A DNA stretch of 64,000 nt from an uncultured Agathobaculum sp. (lineage in GTDB: Bacteria > Bacillota > Clostridia > Oscillospirales > Butyricicoccaceae). The stretch lies in the NCBI RefSeq assembly GCF_944384765.1, contig NZ_CALWUM010000010.1, positions 1 through 64,000 of the forward strand. The letters run 5' to 3'. The notes under the pieces were generated by a model. That model saw only the letters and a list, made by a program, of their open reading frames with translations, searched no databases and was not told where the DNA came from. Below, piece by piece: positions 11,282-53,248 of the stretch. The position numbers were made by a program, and so were the translations under genes. Within the stretch, counting starts at the first letter, position 1, and every line of letters begins with the position of its first letter.

Positions 11282-11836
11282 ATGAAGGCTCAGCTCAACG
11301 CTTATGAGGACAAAATGAAAAAGACGCTCGACGTGCTCGCCAAGGAGCTTGCGGCGGTGCGCGCAGGCCGCGCCAATCCCGCTGTGCTCGATAAGATCAC
11401 GGTCGAGTATTACGGCGCGCCGACCCCGCTCAATCAGGTGGCGGCGATCTCGTCGCCCGATCCGCGCTCGCTGGCCATCCAGCCGTGGGACGCCTCGCTG
11501 CTCAAGGCGATCGAAAAGGCGATCCAGGTGTCCGATCTGGGCATTAACCCGCAGAATGACGGCAAGTTGATCCGTCTGAACTTCCCGCCGCTGACCGAGG
11601 AGCGCCGTAAGGAGCTGATCAAGGGCGTGTCCAAAACCGGCGAGGAATCCAAGGTCGCCATCCGCAACATCCGCCGCGATGCGATCGACAAGTTCAAGGC
11701 CGCGCAGAAAAAGAGCGAGATGACCGAGGACGAGCTGCATGACGGCGAAGAAAAGATGCAGAAGCTGACCGATAAATACGTCAAGGAGATTGACGCGATG
11801 GTTGCCAAGAAGTCCAAGGAGCTGGCGGAAGTCTAA
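11282..11836 (+). CDS. frr: Ribosome recycling factor
   Basis: 184-residue protein that, with EF-G, splits post-termination ribosomes. The family pattern is complete: [15 protein letters not shown] near the start, [33 protein letters not shown]-like [24 protein letters not shown] (split here across residues 80-105), and the C-terminal [11 protein letters not shown] and [10 protein letters not shown]. It directly abuts pyrH (TAA then ATG) with its ribosome site inside the pyrH end. Immediately downstream lies hairpin array A rather than a simple terminator. Confidence 0.97.
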
Positions 11837-11840
11837 AAAA

Positions 11841-11987
11841 ATCCAAGGGGGACACTGTCCCCCTTGGATACGAAAGAAGTTCCGAAGAAACTTTTTTCGA
11901 TAACCCGCTCTCGTCCGCACGGCGGACGAGGCCACGCCGCCGCGGCGTGGGCAGCGGAATAAAAGCCTGGCAGAGCTGGGCTTTTAT
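11841..11987 (+). repeat. Hairpin array, copy A (between frr and uppS)
   Basis: Five tandem hairpins: h1 TCCAAGGGGGAC/GTCCCCCTTGGA (11842-11868); h2 CGAAAGAAGTT/AACTTTTTTCG (11871-11899); h3 CTCGTCCGC/GCGGACGAG (11910-11930); h4 CCACGCCG/CGGCGTGG (11932-11950); h5 ATAAAAGCC/GGGCTTTTAT (11959-11987). Copy B at 13855 has the same order with paired base changes. No T tract follows h1, so it is not a plain terminator. Confidence 0.85.
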
Positions 11988-12230
11988 GGAGATTTTCGGA
12001 CAGGATCATCGCGCTGTGGGCGCGTATGGATGAGCCCAAACCGGGCAGTTGTTCCCGGTTTTGGTGCAGGAGTGGAGCAGGGTTCCGTGCATCGGAATGT
12101 TTGCGCTTTTGGGGACAAGTTTCGGGCTTTGCCCAGCAGATCCCTTTGCCCTGAAAAACATTGGTTTTTCAGCGAAGCATAAGAATTGGGGGGCGGCGGG
12201 ATCGCCGCCTCTTTGCTTGGGGGAAAGATT
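11988..12230 (+). other. Hairpin-rich leader between array A and uppS
   Basis: No gene is supported here. Further inverted repeats occur: AAACCGGG/CCCGGTTT (about 12039-12062), CTGAAAAAC/GTTTTTCAG (about 12150-12171) and GGCGGC/GCCGCC (about 12192-12209). Together with array A the untranslated gap is almost 400 bp, very long for this normally compact cluster. Confidence 0.5.
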
Positions 12231-13850: not shown

Positions 13851-13854
13851 AAAC

Positions 13855-14000
13855 GCCAAGGGGGACACGTCCCCCTTAGATACGCAAAAAGTTCCGGAAA
13901 AAACTTTTTGCGATAATCCCCGCTCATCCGCACCGCGGATGAGACCGCGCCGCAGCGGCGCGGGAAGCGGAATCGAAGTCCGGCAAAGCTGGACTTCGAT
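13855..14000 (+). repeat. Hairpin array, copy B (between cdsA and dxr)
   Basis: The same five-hairpin order as copy A: h1 AAGGGGGAC/GTCCCCCTT (13858-13877); h2 CGCAAAAAGTT/AACTTTTTGCG (13883-13912); h3 CTCATCCGC/GCGGATGAG (13923-13943); h4 CCGCGCCG/CGGCGCGG (13945-13963); h5 ATCGAAGTCC/GGACTTCGAT (13972-14000). Stem bases that differ from A change on both sides (G-C to A-T in h3, A-T to G-C in h4, three pairs in h5). Confidence 0.88.
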
Positions 14001-36652: not shown

Positions 36653-36940
36653 TACATTTTGAATATGGCAATAAAGCGATGACCGGAAAAGTAGCGTCTG
36701 GAATCCAGTGAGAGAGCCGTCGGTTGGTGAGAGACGGCGGAGGAAGGAAAGAGCGAAAGTCCTCCGTGAGCCGAACATCTGAAATAGGATGAAACAGGGC
36801 CTTGTGTAAGGTGTTCCGCATGATCTGCGTTAAAGGATCGGGTGAGTGGTCGCGCCGCAGGTTTGCTGTGCGCGGCAAAAAGAGTGGTACCGCAGAGTTT
36901 TGATCGTCTTTGTCTCTTTGTGAGGCAAGGACTTTTTTTA
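36653..36940 (+). promoter_or_regulatory. T-box leader of ilvB, probable Val (GTC) specifier
   Basis: A tRNA-sensing riboswitch. The specifier-loop strands are AAAAGTAGCG (5') and GCGAAAGTC (3'); AGAGAGCC and GGTTGGTGAGAG mark the upper stem I. The T-box sequence AGAGTGGTACCGCAGA lies at 36881-36896. A terminator stem (36906-36932) with T7 follows. Aligning GAA-N-codon-N6-GAGC with the valS and pheS leaders puts the specifier at GTC (36759-36761), Val. Uncharged tRNA-Val would thus allow read-through into ilvB. Confidence 0.9.
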
Positions 36941-40191: not shown

Positions 40192-40197
40192 GTAATT

Positions 40198-40383
40198 CGT
40201 TTGAAACGTACCGTTTCAAACGAGAGGACGTGCCGCGCGGTGCGCGGACACGTCCGGGGCTGCGAAAAGTTCCGACAAGCGAAACTTTTCTCCGCTCTTT
40301 GTGTAAAAAGTCAGGCGCATGTCCTGACTTTTTACGAAAAATCCGGTGTACCGGATTTTCGATTGCATAGCGCCTTTGGGCGC
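40198..40383 (+). repeat. Hairpin array, copy C (between ilvC and ilvD)
   Basis: Tandem hairpins: CGTTTGAAACG/CGTTTCAAACG (40198-40222); GGACGTG...CACGTCC enclosing CCGCGC/GCGCGG (40226-40255); GAAAAGTT/AACTTTTC (40264-40290); GTAAAAAGTCAGG/CCTGACTTTTTAC (40303-40335); GAAAAATCCGG/CCGGATTTTC (40336-40360); GCGCC/GGGCGC (40370-40383). Order and core (GCGAAAAGTTCC...AACTTTTCTCCGC) match copy D between pheS and pheT. Confidence 0.87.
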
Positions 40384-46671: not shown

Positions 46672-49374
46672 TCAGCTGCGCAGCGCAGCGTCGAAATCCT
46701 TTTCGAGCGCGGCAAGCGCGTTTTTCATCGCCTTGTCGCACTCCTCATCGGTCAGCGTGCGGTCGGGTGCGCGCAGGGACAGCGAGTAGGCAACCGACTT
46801 TTTGCCTTCCGGGATGCCCTTGCCCTTGTAGACGTCAAACAGGCGGACCGACTCAAGAATCGCGCCTGCAGCCTGCTCGATGGCAGCCTGCATGGACGCT
46901 GCCGGCACGGCGTCATCCACCAGCACCGCAATGTCGCGGGTGGAAGCCGGGAACTTGGGCAGCGGGTGGTACAGCTTCTCGGGCTCGATCGCATCAAACA
47001 GCGCATCCATGCGGAGCTCGGCCGCGAGCACCTCGCCGGACAGGCCGTAGCGGTCGGCCACCGTCGGGTGGATGGTGCCGAGCACGCCGATCTGCTTGCC
47101 GTCGATCAGCACGTTCGCGCAGCGGCCCGGGTGATAGGACGGGTTGTTCTTCTCGGTCACGAACTGCGCGCCCTTGATGTTGAGCTCGCGCAGCAGCGCC
47201 TCAATCACGCCCTTGAACTGGAAGAAGGTCAGGCGGCCATAGCTGCCGAGTGTGAGCACCTTTTCCTCGTGCGGCAGCACATCCGCATCCGCCTTGCCAT
47301 CCTTGACCACCGGCAGATAGACCGTGCCCATCTCATAAAGCGACGCGGTCGCGTTGCGGTGCGCATGGTTGTGCGCGAGCGATTGCAGCATGGAGGGCAG
47401 CACGGTCGTGCGCATGATGCTGAAGTCCTCGCCGAGCGGGTTGAGGATGGTGGTCGAGATGCGGCGCGGATCGTCCGCAGCCCAGCCGATCATATCGTAG
47501 AATTTCGGGGAGATGAACGAGTGGCTCATGGCCTCGTCAAAGCCCGCCTCGCGGCAGACGAGCGAAGCGGCGCGTTCAGCCTGCTGGCGCGGGGTGTATT
47601 CGCCCTGCACCATCTCGCCCGCATACAGCGTGGTCGGGATTTTGTCATAGCCGTACATGCGCGCAACTTCCTCAGCCAGGTCGCACATGCGCGCAATGTC
47701 CGTGCGGAAGCTCGGCACGATGACCTCGCCGTTCTCCACTTTAAAGCCCAGCTTTTCCAGATAAGCCTGCTGCTCGTCTGCCGAAAGGGCCAGGCCGAGC
47801 AGGCCGTTCATCTTGTCCGGCTCGAACGGCAGGCGCTTGGGATTGGGGTCGGAGTTGTCCACGTCGATGATGCCGTCGATCACCTCGCCCGCGTCGAGCA
47901 GTTCAACCAGCTCGCAGGCGCGGTCGACCGCCTCGAGCGTCATGCGGGGATCAAGGCCCTTTTCAAAGCGGCCGGATGCCTCGGTGCGCATGCCGAGCGC
48001 CTTGGCGGTCACGCGGACGGTTGCGCCGTGGAAGCAGGCGGACTCAAAGACCACGGTTGTGGTGTCATCCTCGATCTCGGAGTTGGCGCCGCCCATGACG
48101 CCCGCAACAGCAACCGGCTTATCGTTGTCGCAGATGGCGAGCATCTTGTCGGTCAGATCGTGGTCCTGGCCGTCGAGCGTCTGGATGGACTCGCCGTCCC
48201 GCGCGCGGCGCACGACGATTTTGCCGTCCGACAGGCAGGCATAGTCAAACGCGTGCATGGGCTGGCCGTACTCGAGCATAACGTAGTTGGTGATGTCGAC
48301 GATGTTGTTGATCGGACGCACGCCGCAGGCGTGCAGGCGCGCGCGCATCCACGCGGGCGAGGGCTCGATCTTGATATTGCGCACCAGGCGCGCGGTGTAG
48401 CGCGGGCACAGGTCGGGGTCGCGCACCTCGACCGACATATACTTGTTGATATCGTCGCCCACGCCCTTGACCGACGGGGTATTGACGTGGAACGGGCGGT
48501 CAAAGGTGGCGGCGGTCTCGCGCGCCAGGCCGATGACGCTCAGGCAGTCCGGCCGGTTGGAGGTAATTTCAAAATCCGCGACCCATTCGTCCAGGCCGAG
48601 CACCTTTTTGATGTCGTCGCCCGGCTTGCAGTCCTCGTTCAGGATTAGGATGCCGTCCGTGATGCAGTGCGGGAACTCAGCCGGCTGGGCATGCAGATCG
48701 TCGGGCGTGCACACGGTCATGGCGGCGGTGTCGACCGCGATAAAGTCGTCCGCGTGGATGTTTGCGCAGTCGGTGGACAGCCGGGTTTCGCCCGCGCCGC
48801 AGTCCACGGTCAGGTCATACTGCGAATAGCCGGCGGGCTGGACGGACAGCACCTTGGCGGCGACCGTCTTGCCGAAGATTTTGTATCCCGCGGTCAGCTC
48901 TTCGGGCAGGGAGGGCTTTTCGCCCTTCAGGCAGTGGTAGTCGTTCAGGATCGCCGCGGGCTTGATGACCGCGTAGGGCACGTTGTGCGTGTCGAGCTGC
49001 AATTCTTTCAGCGAGCACAGCATGCCGTTGGACACCTCGCCGCGCAGCTTGCCCTTGGTGATTTTGACCCCGCCGGGCAGGGAGGACTTGTGCTTTGCAA
49101 CCGGGATCAGGTCGCCCTCGTGGATGTTCCACGCGCCGGTGCAGATCTGGGTGACTTCGTCCCCCACGTCGATCTGACAGATCCACATGTGGTCGGAGTT
49201 CGGGTGGCGGACCATCTCGTTGATGCGGCCGACCACGACGTTGTCGATCTCCGCGCCCAGATTGTAAACCTCTTCAACCTTGGAGCCGGACATCGTGAGC
49301 TTCGCGTCATATTCCTTGGGGGTGACGCCGGAAATATCGGTGTAATCCGAAAGCCAGGAAAGCGGCAGTTTCAT
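46672..49374 (-). CDS. pheT: Phenylalanine--tRNA ligase beta subunit, with an extra OB-like segment
   Basis: 900-residue subunit, about 100 longer than usual. Order: N-terminal part (MKLPLSWLSDY), EMAPII-type tRNA-binding OB fold (about 41-125), an extra segment (about 135-237), B3/B4 editing domain (ITSNRPDCLSVIGLARE onward, MHAFDYACL, VAGVMGGANSEI), B5 (about 515-590), catalytic-like core and the C-terminal anticodon-binding ferredoxin fold (FPASTRDIAVLVDD). The extra segment repeats features of the OB fold (ICTGAWNIHEGDLIPV versus LSTDCANIHADDFIAV), suggesting internal duplication. It follows pheS across hairpin array D. Confidence 0.95.
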   Translation of the reverse strand: MKLPLSWLSDYTDISGVTPKEYDAKLTMSGSKVEEVYNLGAEIDNVVVGRINEMVRHPNSDHMWICQIDVGDEVTQICTGAWNIHEGDLIPVAKHKSSLPGGVKITKGKLRGEVSNGMLCSLKELQLDTHNVPYAVIKPAAILNDYHCLKGEKPSLPEELTAGYKIFGKTVAAKVLSVQPAGYSQYDLTVDCGAGETRLSTDCANIHADDFIAVDTAAMTVCTPDDLHAQPAEFPHCITDGILILNEDCKPGDDIKKVLGLDEWVADFEITSNRPDCLSVIGLARETAATFDRPFHVNTPSVKGVGDDINKYMSVEVRDPDLCPRYTARLVRNIKIEPSPAWMRARLHACGVRPINNIVDITNYVMLEYGQPMHAFDYACLSDGKIVVRRARDGESIQTLDGQDHDLTDKMLAICDNDKPVAVAGVMGGANSEIEDDTTTVVFESACFHGATVRVTAKALGMRTEASGRFEKGLDPRMTLEAVDRACELVELLDAGEVIDGIIDVDNSDPNPKRLPFEPDKMNGLLGLALSADEQQAYLEKLGFKVENGEVIVPSFRTDIARMCDLAEEVARMYGYDKIPTTLYAGEMVQGEYTPRQQAERAASLVCREAGFDEAMSHSFISPKFYDMIGWAADDPRRISTTILNPLGEDFSIMRTTVLPSMLQSLAHNHAHRNATASLYEMGTVYLPVVKDGKADADVLPHEEKVLTLGSYGRLTFFQFKGVIEALLRELNIKGAQFVTEKNNPSYHPGRCANVLIDGKQIGVLGTIHPTVADRYGLSGEVLAAELRMDALFDAIEPEKLYHPLPKFPASTRDIAVLVDDAVPAASMQAAIEQAAGAILESVRLFDVYKGKGIPEGKKSVAYSLSLRAPDRTLTDEECDKAMKNALAALEKDFDAALRS

Positions 49375-49440
49375 AAGGGATTCGCGCTCCTTTATTTCAA
49401 AAATCAGGATACCGCGCCATACAGCGCGTCCGCGCCGTCA

Positions 49441-49616
49441 GGCGCGCATTTTCATGGAGACCGCTGTGCGGTCGACAAAAAACCGGGAGCATGTATCACG
49501 GTTTTTTAACAGCAGCGGAGAAAAGTTTCGGCAAAGCCGGAACTTTTCGCAGCGCCTGGACGCATCCGCGCGATGCGCGGTGCGGCCGCTTCGATCGAAA
49601 CGGCAGTTTCGATCGA
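49441..49616 (-). repeat. Hairpin array, copy D (between pheS and pheT)
   Basis: Read on the minus (transcribed) strand, the order is the same as copy C: TCGATCGAAAC/GTTTCGATCGA (49616-49591); CCGCGC/GCGCGG inside a longer stem (about 49584-49558); GAAAAGTTCCGGC/GCCGAAACTTTTC (about 49548-49520); AAAAAACCG/CGGTTTTTT (about 49507-49487); GACCGC/GCGGTC (49473-49459). Stem bases differ from copy C but pairing is kept. Confidence 0.85.
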
Positions 49617-49622
49617 GCCTGT

Positions 49623-50642
49623 TTAAAACTGGTGCAGGAATCTTACGTCGTTCTCGTAGAACAGACGGATGTCGTCGATCTTGAAGCGGCCCATGACCGT
49701 GCGCTCCAGGCCGATGCCGAACGCATAGCCGGAATACTCCTCCGGGTCGATGCCGCTGGTTTCGAGCACCTTGGGGTGCACCATGCCGCAGCCGAGGATC
49801 TCGATCCAGCCCTCTCCCTTGCAGAGCGGGCAGCCCGCGCCGTGGCAGCGGTAGCACTGGATATCCATTTCCGCGGAAGGCTCGGTGAACGGGAAGTGGT
49901 GCGGGCGGAAGCGGACGACCGTGTCCTCGCCGTACAGCTTTTTGGCGAACAGCTCGAGGATGCCCTTGAGGTCGGACATGCGGATGCCCTTATCGACAAC
50001 CAGGCCCTCGATCTGGTGGAACAGCGGCGAATGGGTCGCGTCGACCGCGTCTGAGCGGTACACACGGCCGGGCGCAATGATGCGGATCGGCGGCTTTTTC
50101 TTCTCCATCACGCGCACCTGCATGCCCGAGGTCTGGGTGCGCAGCACGACGTTGTCCGAGATGTAGAAGGTGTCCTGCGTATCGCGCGCGGGGTGGTCCT
50201 TGGGGATGTTGAGCGCTTCAAAGTTGTAGTGGTCGAGCTCGACTTCCGGGCCTTCAGCGATCGAGAAGCCCAGGCCGACAAAGATCTCCTTGAGCTCGTC
50301 GAGCACGATATTGAGCGGGTGTTCCTTGCCGATGACGACTTCCTCGCCCGGCAGGGTGACGTCGATGGACTCGGCCTCGAGCTTGTGCGCGAGCGCGGCC
50401 TGCTCGATCTCAGCGCGGCGCGTTTCGATGATGGACTCGATTTCGGCGCGCACATCGTTGACCATCTGGCCGACCACCGGACGGTCCTCGGGCGCAACGT
50501 CCTTCATGCCCTTGAGCAACGCGGTCAACTCGCCCTTTTTGCCGAGGAACTTGACGCGCGCCTCATCCAGTGCGCGCGCATCCGCAGCGGCGGCCAGCTG
50601 CTCTTTTGCGGCCTGCAGAATGCCTTGCAGTTTTTCTTTCAT
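49623..50642 (-). CDS. pheS: Phenylalanine--tRNA ligase alpha subunit
   Basis: 339-residue catalytic subunit of the class II synthetase. The N-terminal coiled coil covers about 1-85; motif 2 region includes [19 protein letters not shown] and [16 protein letters not shown]; motif 3 is [32 protein letters not shown] zinc-ribbon-like insert stands before motif 3. The start follows GGAGAG. A T-box leader lies upstream; pheT follows after a 248-bp gap filled by array D. Confidence 0.97.
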
Positions 50643-50681: not shown

Positions 50682-50960
50682 AAAAAAGCCTTTCGTCCCA
50701 CAAAATAGGGACGAAAGGCGTCATATACATCTTCCGTGGTACCACCCTGATTCCCGGACAAGGCCGGGCACTCATTGAACGCCGGTAACGGGGCGTCACC
50801 CCGCCCGCGCCTACTGGAAAAAGCCGTTCAGCGCCGGTGCTCGCAGGGGAACTTCGCGTCATGCCTCTTTGGGCGGCTCGCAGCCAGAAGGCCGCCTTCT
50901 CTGAAAAGAGGGGGATGGCGTTACTTTCCCTGTTCATCGCAGGTGTCGTTATTCCATAAC
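50682..50960 (-). promoter_or_regulatory. T-box leader of pheST, Phe (TTC) specifier
   Basis: Minus-strand riboswitch. Specifier strands are AAAGTAACGCC (5') and GCGAAGTTCC (3'), with TTC at 50851-50849. The T-box sequence CAGGGTGGTACCACGGAAG lies at 50749-50731. The terminator GCCTTTCGTCCC/GGGACGAAAGGC (50719-50688) ends in T6. Uncharged tRNA-Phe should promote read-through. Confidence 0.93.
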
Positions 50961-53001: not shown

Positions 53002-53248
53002 GTTAATATGCAAAATGCGATGAAAAAGAGGAGTATCCCTGCTTTGCGCGCTTCAGAGAACGGGCGGTTCGGTGCAAGCCCTGCGGCGGAGGGGGAGAAG
53101 GTCGCTTTGGAGCAGGAGGGCTGAATGCAGTAGGCCGTCCCGCCACCCTGCGTTACGGGCAAATGAGTGCGCGGCTGTCTGGCCGCGAAATTAGGTGGTA
53201 CCACGGAGCACGCTTCGTCCTATGCGGACGGCGTGCTCTTATTTTTTG
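53002..53248 (+). promoter_or_regulatory. T-box leader of valS, Val (GTC) specifier
   Basis: Specifier strands are GAGGAGTATCCC (5') and GAGAAGGTCGC (3'), with GTC at 53101-53103. AGAGAACGGGCGG and GGTTCGGTGCAAGCC mark stem I. The T-box sequence TTAGGTGGTACCACGG is at 53191-53206. The terminator GAGCACGC...GCGTGCTC (53206-53238) runs into a T-rich tract. Confidence 0.94.

Follow-up and report, generated by a model that had tools for sequence, protein, structure and literature searches.

Enterobacterial REP/BIME elements are dispersed extragenic palindromes, present in tens of copies or more and often arrayed, which lie close behind stop codons and within operons and whose hairpins carry conserved imperfections. 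The arrays described here share all of these features. REPs are reported to stall ribosomes when they lie within about 15 nt of a stop codon, and REP palindromes at up to 15 nt to affect ribosomes and mRNA (as cited in PMC12306157). In the cip-cel operon of Clostridium, selective RNA processing (SRPS) takes place at 3' stem-loops (PMC4423207). Perfect stems can arise and persist through replication template switching (PMC8794818).

The array studied here separates pheS and pheT in a window of 64,000 nt from an uncultured Agathobaculum sp. (contig NZ_CALWUM010000010.1, positions 1 to 64,000). It belongs to a family of its own that is so far undescribed and is found throughout the genus Agathobaculum; a literature search on Agathobaculum repeats found no paper on it. 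We consider it somewhat probable that the arrays are REP/BIME-like, that is, a dispersed, modular multi-palindrome repeat of mobile origin that forms its own family and docks at gene ends.

Results

The array between pheS and pheT

Both genes are on the minus strand, pheS (49623..50642) upstream and pheT (46672..49374) downstream of the array, here called copy D, and the gap between them (49375-49622) is 248 bp. Copy D consists of six hairpins in a row, H1 to H6, and spans 49616-49431 on the minus strand. Its folding was far stronger than that of dinucleotide shuffles (z = -5.7), and none of 200 shuffles folded equally well. The first-pass annotation had claimed that a hairpin array separates the two genes by 248 bp, and coordinates and folding bear this out. 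It had placed copy D at 49441-49616 (176 bp); the array is indeed there, but its true end lies slightly further, at 49431.

All six hairpins are on the minus strand. H1 (49591..49616; TCGATCGAAAC-TGCC-GTTTCGATCGA) starts 6 nt past the pheS stop codon and has the family consensus TCGATnGAAAC/GTTTCnATCGA. H2 (49558..49587; GGCCGCACCGCGC..GCGCGGATGCGTCC) has the family form of a GC-rich stem with a bulged A, which follows GG and is kept in 97 of 104 copies. H3 (49515..49553; GCTGCGAAAAGTTCC..GAAACTTTTCTCCGC), with the family consensus GAAAAGTTCCG/CGAAACTTTTC, contains a C.A mismatch kept in 92 of the 104 copies. The most widely shared module is H4 (49477..49507; AAAAAACCGTGATACATGCTCCCGGTTTTTT), whose arms are an A-tract and a T-tract and whose loop is RCATGY. 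The sequence of H5 (49459..49473; GACCGCACAGCGGTC) varies freely among copies, with a stem length of mostly 11-12 bp, and H6 (49431..49447; GCGCGCCTGACGGCGCG; consensus GCGCGC/GCGCGC) ends the array. The window also holds three T-box leaders, at 50704-50946 on the minus strand, directly upstream of pheS, and at 53011-53225 and 36670-36914 on the plus strand.

Other copies in the window and array types

Copy C (40197..40383, plus strand, H6 end approximate) has the same six hairpins, an organization that we call type I, with H1-H4 at 40197-40337. It starts 5 nt past the ilvC stop codon (40191) and is followed by a GC-rich hairpin with a T run, resembling an intrinsic terminator, and then by ilvD. 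Copies A (about 11838..11992) and B (about 13852..13998), both on the plus strand, are type II arrays located immediately past stop codons at 11836 and 13850, respectively. The order in copy A is CCAAGGGGGACA..TGTCCCCCTTGG, an H3-like hairpin, paired hairpins and an H4-like hairpin. Type II has in common with copy D the H3 signature GTTCCG..GAAAC and the H4-like hairpin, and matches to it were present in 24 of 25 genomes of the genus. Type III consists of TATAGGGGGCTTC..GAAGCCCCCTATA, an H3-like stem and CCCGAACGACGCCGCC..GGCGGC..GGGG, with H4-H6 laid out as in type I. The arrays of L207 and L011, in two genomes, contain a similar additional segment (GCCCGTAGGCC.CTATCCTTATTCTG..), which suggests nested modules.

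Size and distribution of the family

A DNA search of the genome found more copies and fragments at other sites, and seven full-length copies gave a clean alignment. With a covariance model (R1) built on H1-H4 and a threshold of E<1e-6 for strong copies, 33 strong sense copies were identified in the own genome, together with weaker echoes on the other strand. R1 was then applied to 60 genomes, comprising the own genome and its relatives. It matched all 24 other Agathobaculum genomes, with 7-54 matches each; the genus, as defined by PheS relatives, takes in records labelled Butyricicoccus faecihominis and Intestinibacillus massiliensis. Of 12 other genera in the family, one gave a weak match, and further out there was almost none. 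One genome had four near-identical copies at separate sites.

A few further families of the order also had H4-like hairpins, partly in comparable arrays. Two genomes of such families (L307, L309 and L310 in G176 and G138) contain three tandem units of 183 bp, each carrying an array that includes an H4-like hairpin. The units are identical in these genomes, which belong to different families, and they are either a shared mobile element or assembly contamination.

The array had no match among the Rfam 15 covariance models at gathering scores, and at E<=1 the single hit was a chance-level GcvB match outside the array; a known RNA family was thus rejected. Plasmid and phage records also had no match to the array, and carriage by either was rejected on that ground.

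Placement relative to genes

Placement was tallied for 111 copies, 30 from the own genome and 81 from other genomes of the genus, with flanking genes called by a simple codon-usage caller and with orthologues included, so that the copies are not phylogenetically independent. Relative to the upstream gene, 82 copies were sense, 26 antisense and 3 not called; in the own genome the numbers were 25, 4 and 1 undetermined. H1 started 1-11 nt past the stop codon in 73 of the 82 sense copies, with a mode of 5-6 nt, and the usual distance from stop codon to array start was 1-8 nt. Only 14 of the 111 copies lay between convergent genes and 2 between divergent genes, so that neither the two orientations nor the convergent sites were equally common. 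In antisense copies, H1 was often near the Shine-Dalgarno sequence (CTCC) of the gene on the opposite strand. L046 and L226 contain a stretch of about 520 bp between two oppositely oriented arrays, both with their H1 ends facing inward.

The shared orientation that the first-pass annotation had reported for copies A-D was recovered, all four being sense and a few nt past a stop codon. As a rule for the whole family it survives as a strong bias (82:26:3) but not in absolute form, with about a quarter of the copies antisense. The placement is better described as docking of the H1 end at gene boundaries, most of them stop codons.

Copies were found at the gene pairs pheS|pheT, ilvC|ilvD, purE|purC, rplI|dnaB, pgk|tpi, grpE|dnaK, argS|prc, dapL|comF and polA|phosphatase-like. 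At pheS|pheT, grpE|dnaK, purE|purC, pgk|tpi and rplI|dnaB, the array puts a stable stem-loop 3' of the first gene within an operon, and these five pairs agree with the earlier claim that copies lie at essential gene pairs. A small stem that encloses the stop codon with 3 bp or more (AGCC-TGAC-GGCT) was seen at 29 of 74 array-bearing stops, compared to 18 of 149 control stops, as in the sense copies L238, L059 and L250. Because many of these cases are orthologous, we keep the excess as a mere observation.

Site histories across species

As had been claimed, pheS and pheT are normally adjacent; the gap is 14-125 bp in about four fifths of the relatives outside the genus, and in Butyricicoccus it is 18-45 bp and free of arrays. 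Every Agathobaculum examined had a type I, type III or related array at this position, except for one lineage, and the presence of the family at this site is old. In this exception, B. faecihominis DFI.6.109 (L077), the gap holds an AT-rich palindromic repeat unrelated to the arrays. Two loci (L075 and L079) have a second copy, in antisense, adjoining the pheT ribosome-binding site.

Other sites were more variable. At ilvC, three genomes were empty (43-44 bp), and the other readable genomes either had an array, which was type I, type III or degenerate, or had none. Among 24 genomes, the rplI-dnaB site had type I in 11, type III in 6, no array in 5 and the AT-rich repeat in 2. Since the ilvC and rplI positions are empty or carry type I or type III depending on the species, the arrays turn over. 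In-place exchange of types was also visible: L072 has type III and L073 type I, with the pre-element AGCGCTnAnGCGCT and the H6 flank in common, and in L196 a type I H1 arm precedes a type III array. The empty ilvC and rplI sites showed no clear target-site duplication. Two near-identical, recent copies (L034 and L035) each have a duplicated terminator-like hairpin at their flanks, a different one at either site, which gives the impression that insertion duplicated the flanking hairpin.

The AT-rich repeat of the B. faecihominis lineage resembles the arrays in being dispersed and in lying a few nt past the rplI stop codon (L336 and L337) and in the pheS-pheT gap, but its sequence (GTAATTAGTAATGAGTAATTAG..) is unrelated. 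It had about 90 matches in each of two genomes and no match at E<=0.001 in the own genome (G000).

Covariation and the strand test

In an alignment of 50 copies, 48 of 50 pairs had changed on both sides. The covariation score was 0.525, compared to 0.149 in shuffles, and 95% of the paired cells were complementary, compared to 33-48% when the alignment was slid. Selection on RNA pairing is expected to tolerate G.U wobbles far better than A.C mismatches. Over 48 pairs in 104 aligned copies, the stems contained 74 G.U and 67 A.C (p 0.61; bootstrap ratio 0.74-1.63), counts that pool non-independent copies, orthologues included, from an alignment fitted to a model that would likewise favour G.U. 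The own genome alone gave 28 and 24. RNase P RNA from the same genomes, used as a control, gave 230 G.U and 8 A.C (Fisher p 1e-25 against the arrays); the control structures came from RNAalifold, which favours G.U, and the difference is nonetheless very large. The pheS T-box leader, a weaker control with a weak consensus, gave 49 and 6. Because G.U and A.C are about equally frequent in the arrays, the palindromy is kept in a strand-symmetric manner, and the stems look to be maintained at the DNA level and not via RNA pairing. The common loops, in comparison, were never inverted in the 104 copies. The loops, the C.A mismatch and the bulged A are thus kept strand-specifically, and therefore something reads one strand.

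Discussion

The arrays are most economically explained as a REP/BIME-like DNA repeat of mobile origin, with transcription of the hairpins a by-product of where it lies. The copies would have come as DNA, probably via a single-stranded hairpin intermediate, and an enzyme acting on this intermediate may recognise the loops, the bulge of H2 and the mismatch of H3. A process at the level of DNA, for instance template switching during replication, would keep the arms of the palindromes complementary, with no part played by selection on RNA pairing. The copies lie in 3'UTRs or between cistrons, where the DNA is transcribed, and the RNA is accordingly expected to fold into hairpins as well. By analogy with REPs, these RNA hairpins probably hinder exonucleases or terminating ribosomes in a passive way. 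The REP-type transposase Y1_Tnp (PF01797) was present in only 4 of 25 array-bearing genomes and no mobilising enzyme was identified; REP/RAYT mobilisation was rejected because most array-bearing genomes are without Y1_Tnp. We hold only tentatively that the arrays are a mobile or formerly mobile single-stranded-hairpin element, which docks at stop codons without RAYT and whose covariation derives from DNA template switching rather than from RNA selection. The conserved C.A mismatch counts against our explanation, because template switching should correct C.A unless it is selected. So do the failure to identify a mobilising enzyme and the lack of a clear target-site duplication at the empty ilvC site.

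It is also conceivable, though in our judgment rather unlikely, that the arrays serve a transcript-level function. The sense bias of 82:26 at 1-8 nt from the stop codon, the copies within conserved operons and the very stable hairpins all fit such a function, and there is a Clostridium precedent in which transcript ratios are set by 3' stem-loops (PMC4423207). Another lineage has unrelated palindromes at the same position, and together with the genus-wide occupancy of pheS-pheT this could mean that a hairpin is useful there. However, G.U is not in excess over A.C, a quarter of the copies are antisense, and at ilvC a strong terminator-like hairpin lies past the array regardless. Relatives have empty sites at ilvC and rplI, in several species, and the presence of an array is unnecessary at these gene pairs. 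The first-pass annotation had taken orientation alone as a strong hint of a transcript-level function; insertion targeting yields the identical pattern, and so orientation on its own is no evidence for it. Judged from sequence, effects of the arrays on mRNA or on the PheS:PheT ratio are plausible, and a useful effect at the transcript level is possible.

The conserved loops, bulge and mismatch, which are never inverted, and the extreme covariation could also be read as a conserved structured regulatory RNA, riboswitch-like or trans-acting, that binds a protein or ligand through its loops. We regard this as very improbable, as the stem mismatches are strand-symmetric, Rfam had no match, dozens of copies lie past unrelated genes, and modules at a single site are exchanged, lost or replaced between species. 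Slightly more improbable still is a role of the arrays in transcription termination or attenuation, in which H4 would be the terminator hairpin. H4 does have an A tract and a U tract, and some copies are between convergent genes, but its U tract is within the stem and is followed by ATG, and arrays occur in operons with an essential downstream gene (pheT, dnaK, dnaB). Moreover, the terminator-like hairpin past the array at ilvC is separate from it and is retained at empty sites, on which ground the terminator reading was rejected.

The arrays are an undescribed repeat family found in essential operons throughout a gut genus, and their placement follows a rule exact to a few bases. Its occupied, empty and swapped sites form a natural series in which the effect of a hairpin behind a stop codon could be tested. 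The strand symmetry of its stems is a warning that perfect covariation is no proof of RNA function, for which the comparison of G.U with A.C is a simple control. If template switching is the true cause, covariation alone would wrongly call a structured RNA, and this count discriminates between the two.

Among the known systems, hairpins maintained by template switching (PMC8794818) are similar in their perfect stems and in arms that change jointly without relying on G.U intermediates. Here the process is proposed for a dispersed bacterial repeat, which retains a mismatch and a bulge and never has its loops inverted. Integron attC sites, as folded single strands with extrahelical bases, may serve as an analogy only. 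The SRPS stem-loops of Clostridium likewise form strong hairpins at gene 3' ends within operons of heteromeric complexes, whereas the array family repeats a single sequence at many unrelated operons and is known here from DNA alone. From REP/BIME the arrays differ in taxon and sequence, and 21 of the 25 array-bearing genomes are without the Y1 transposase. In the 12 nt before H1, inspected by eye for the GTAG/CGTC tag of the REP superfamilies, there was no conserved tetranucleotide. While REP/BIME is one palindrome repeated, the Agathobaculum array is composed of six different hairpins in a fixed order.
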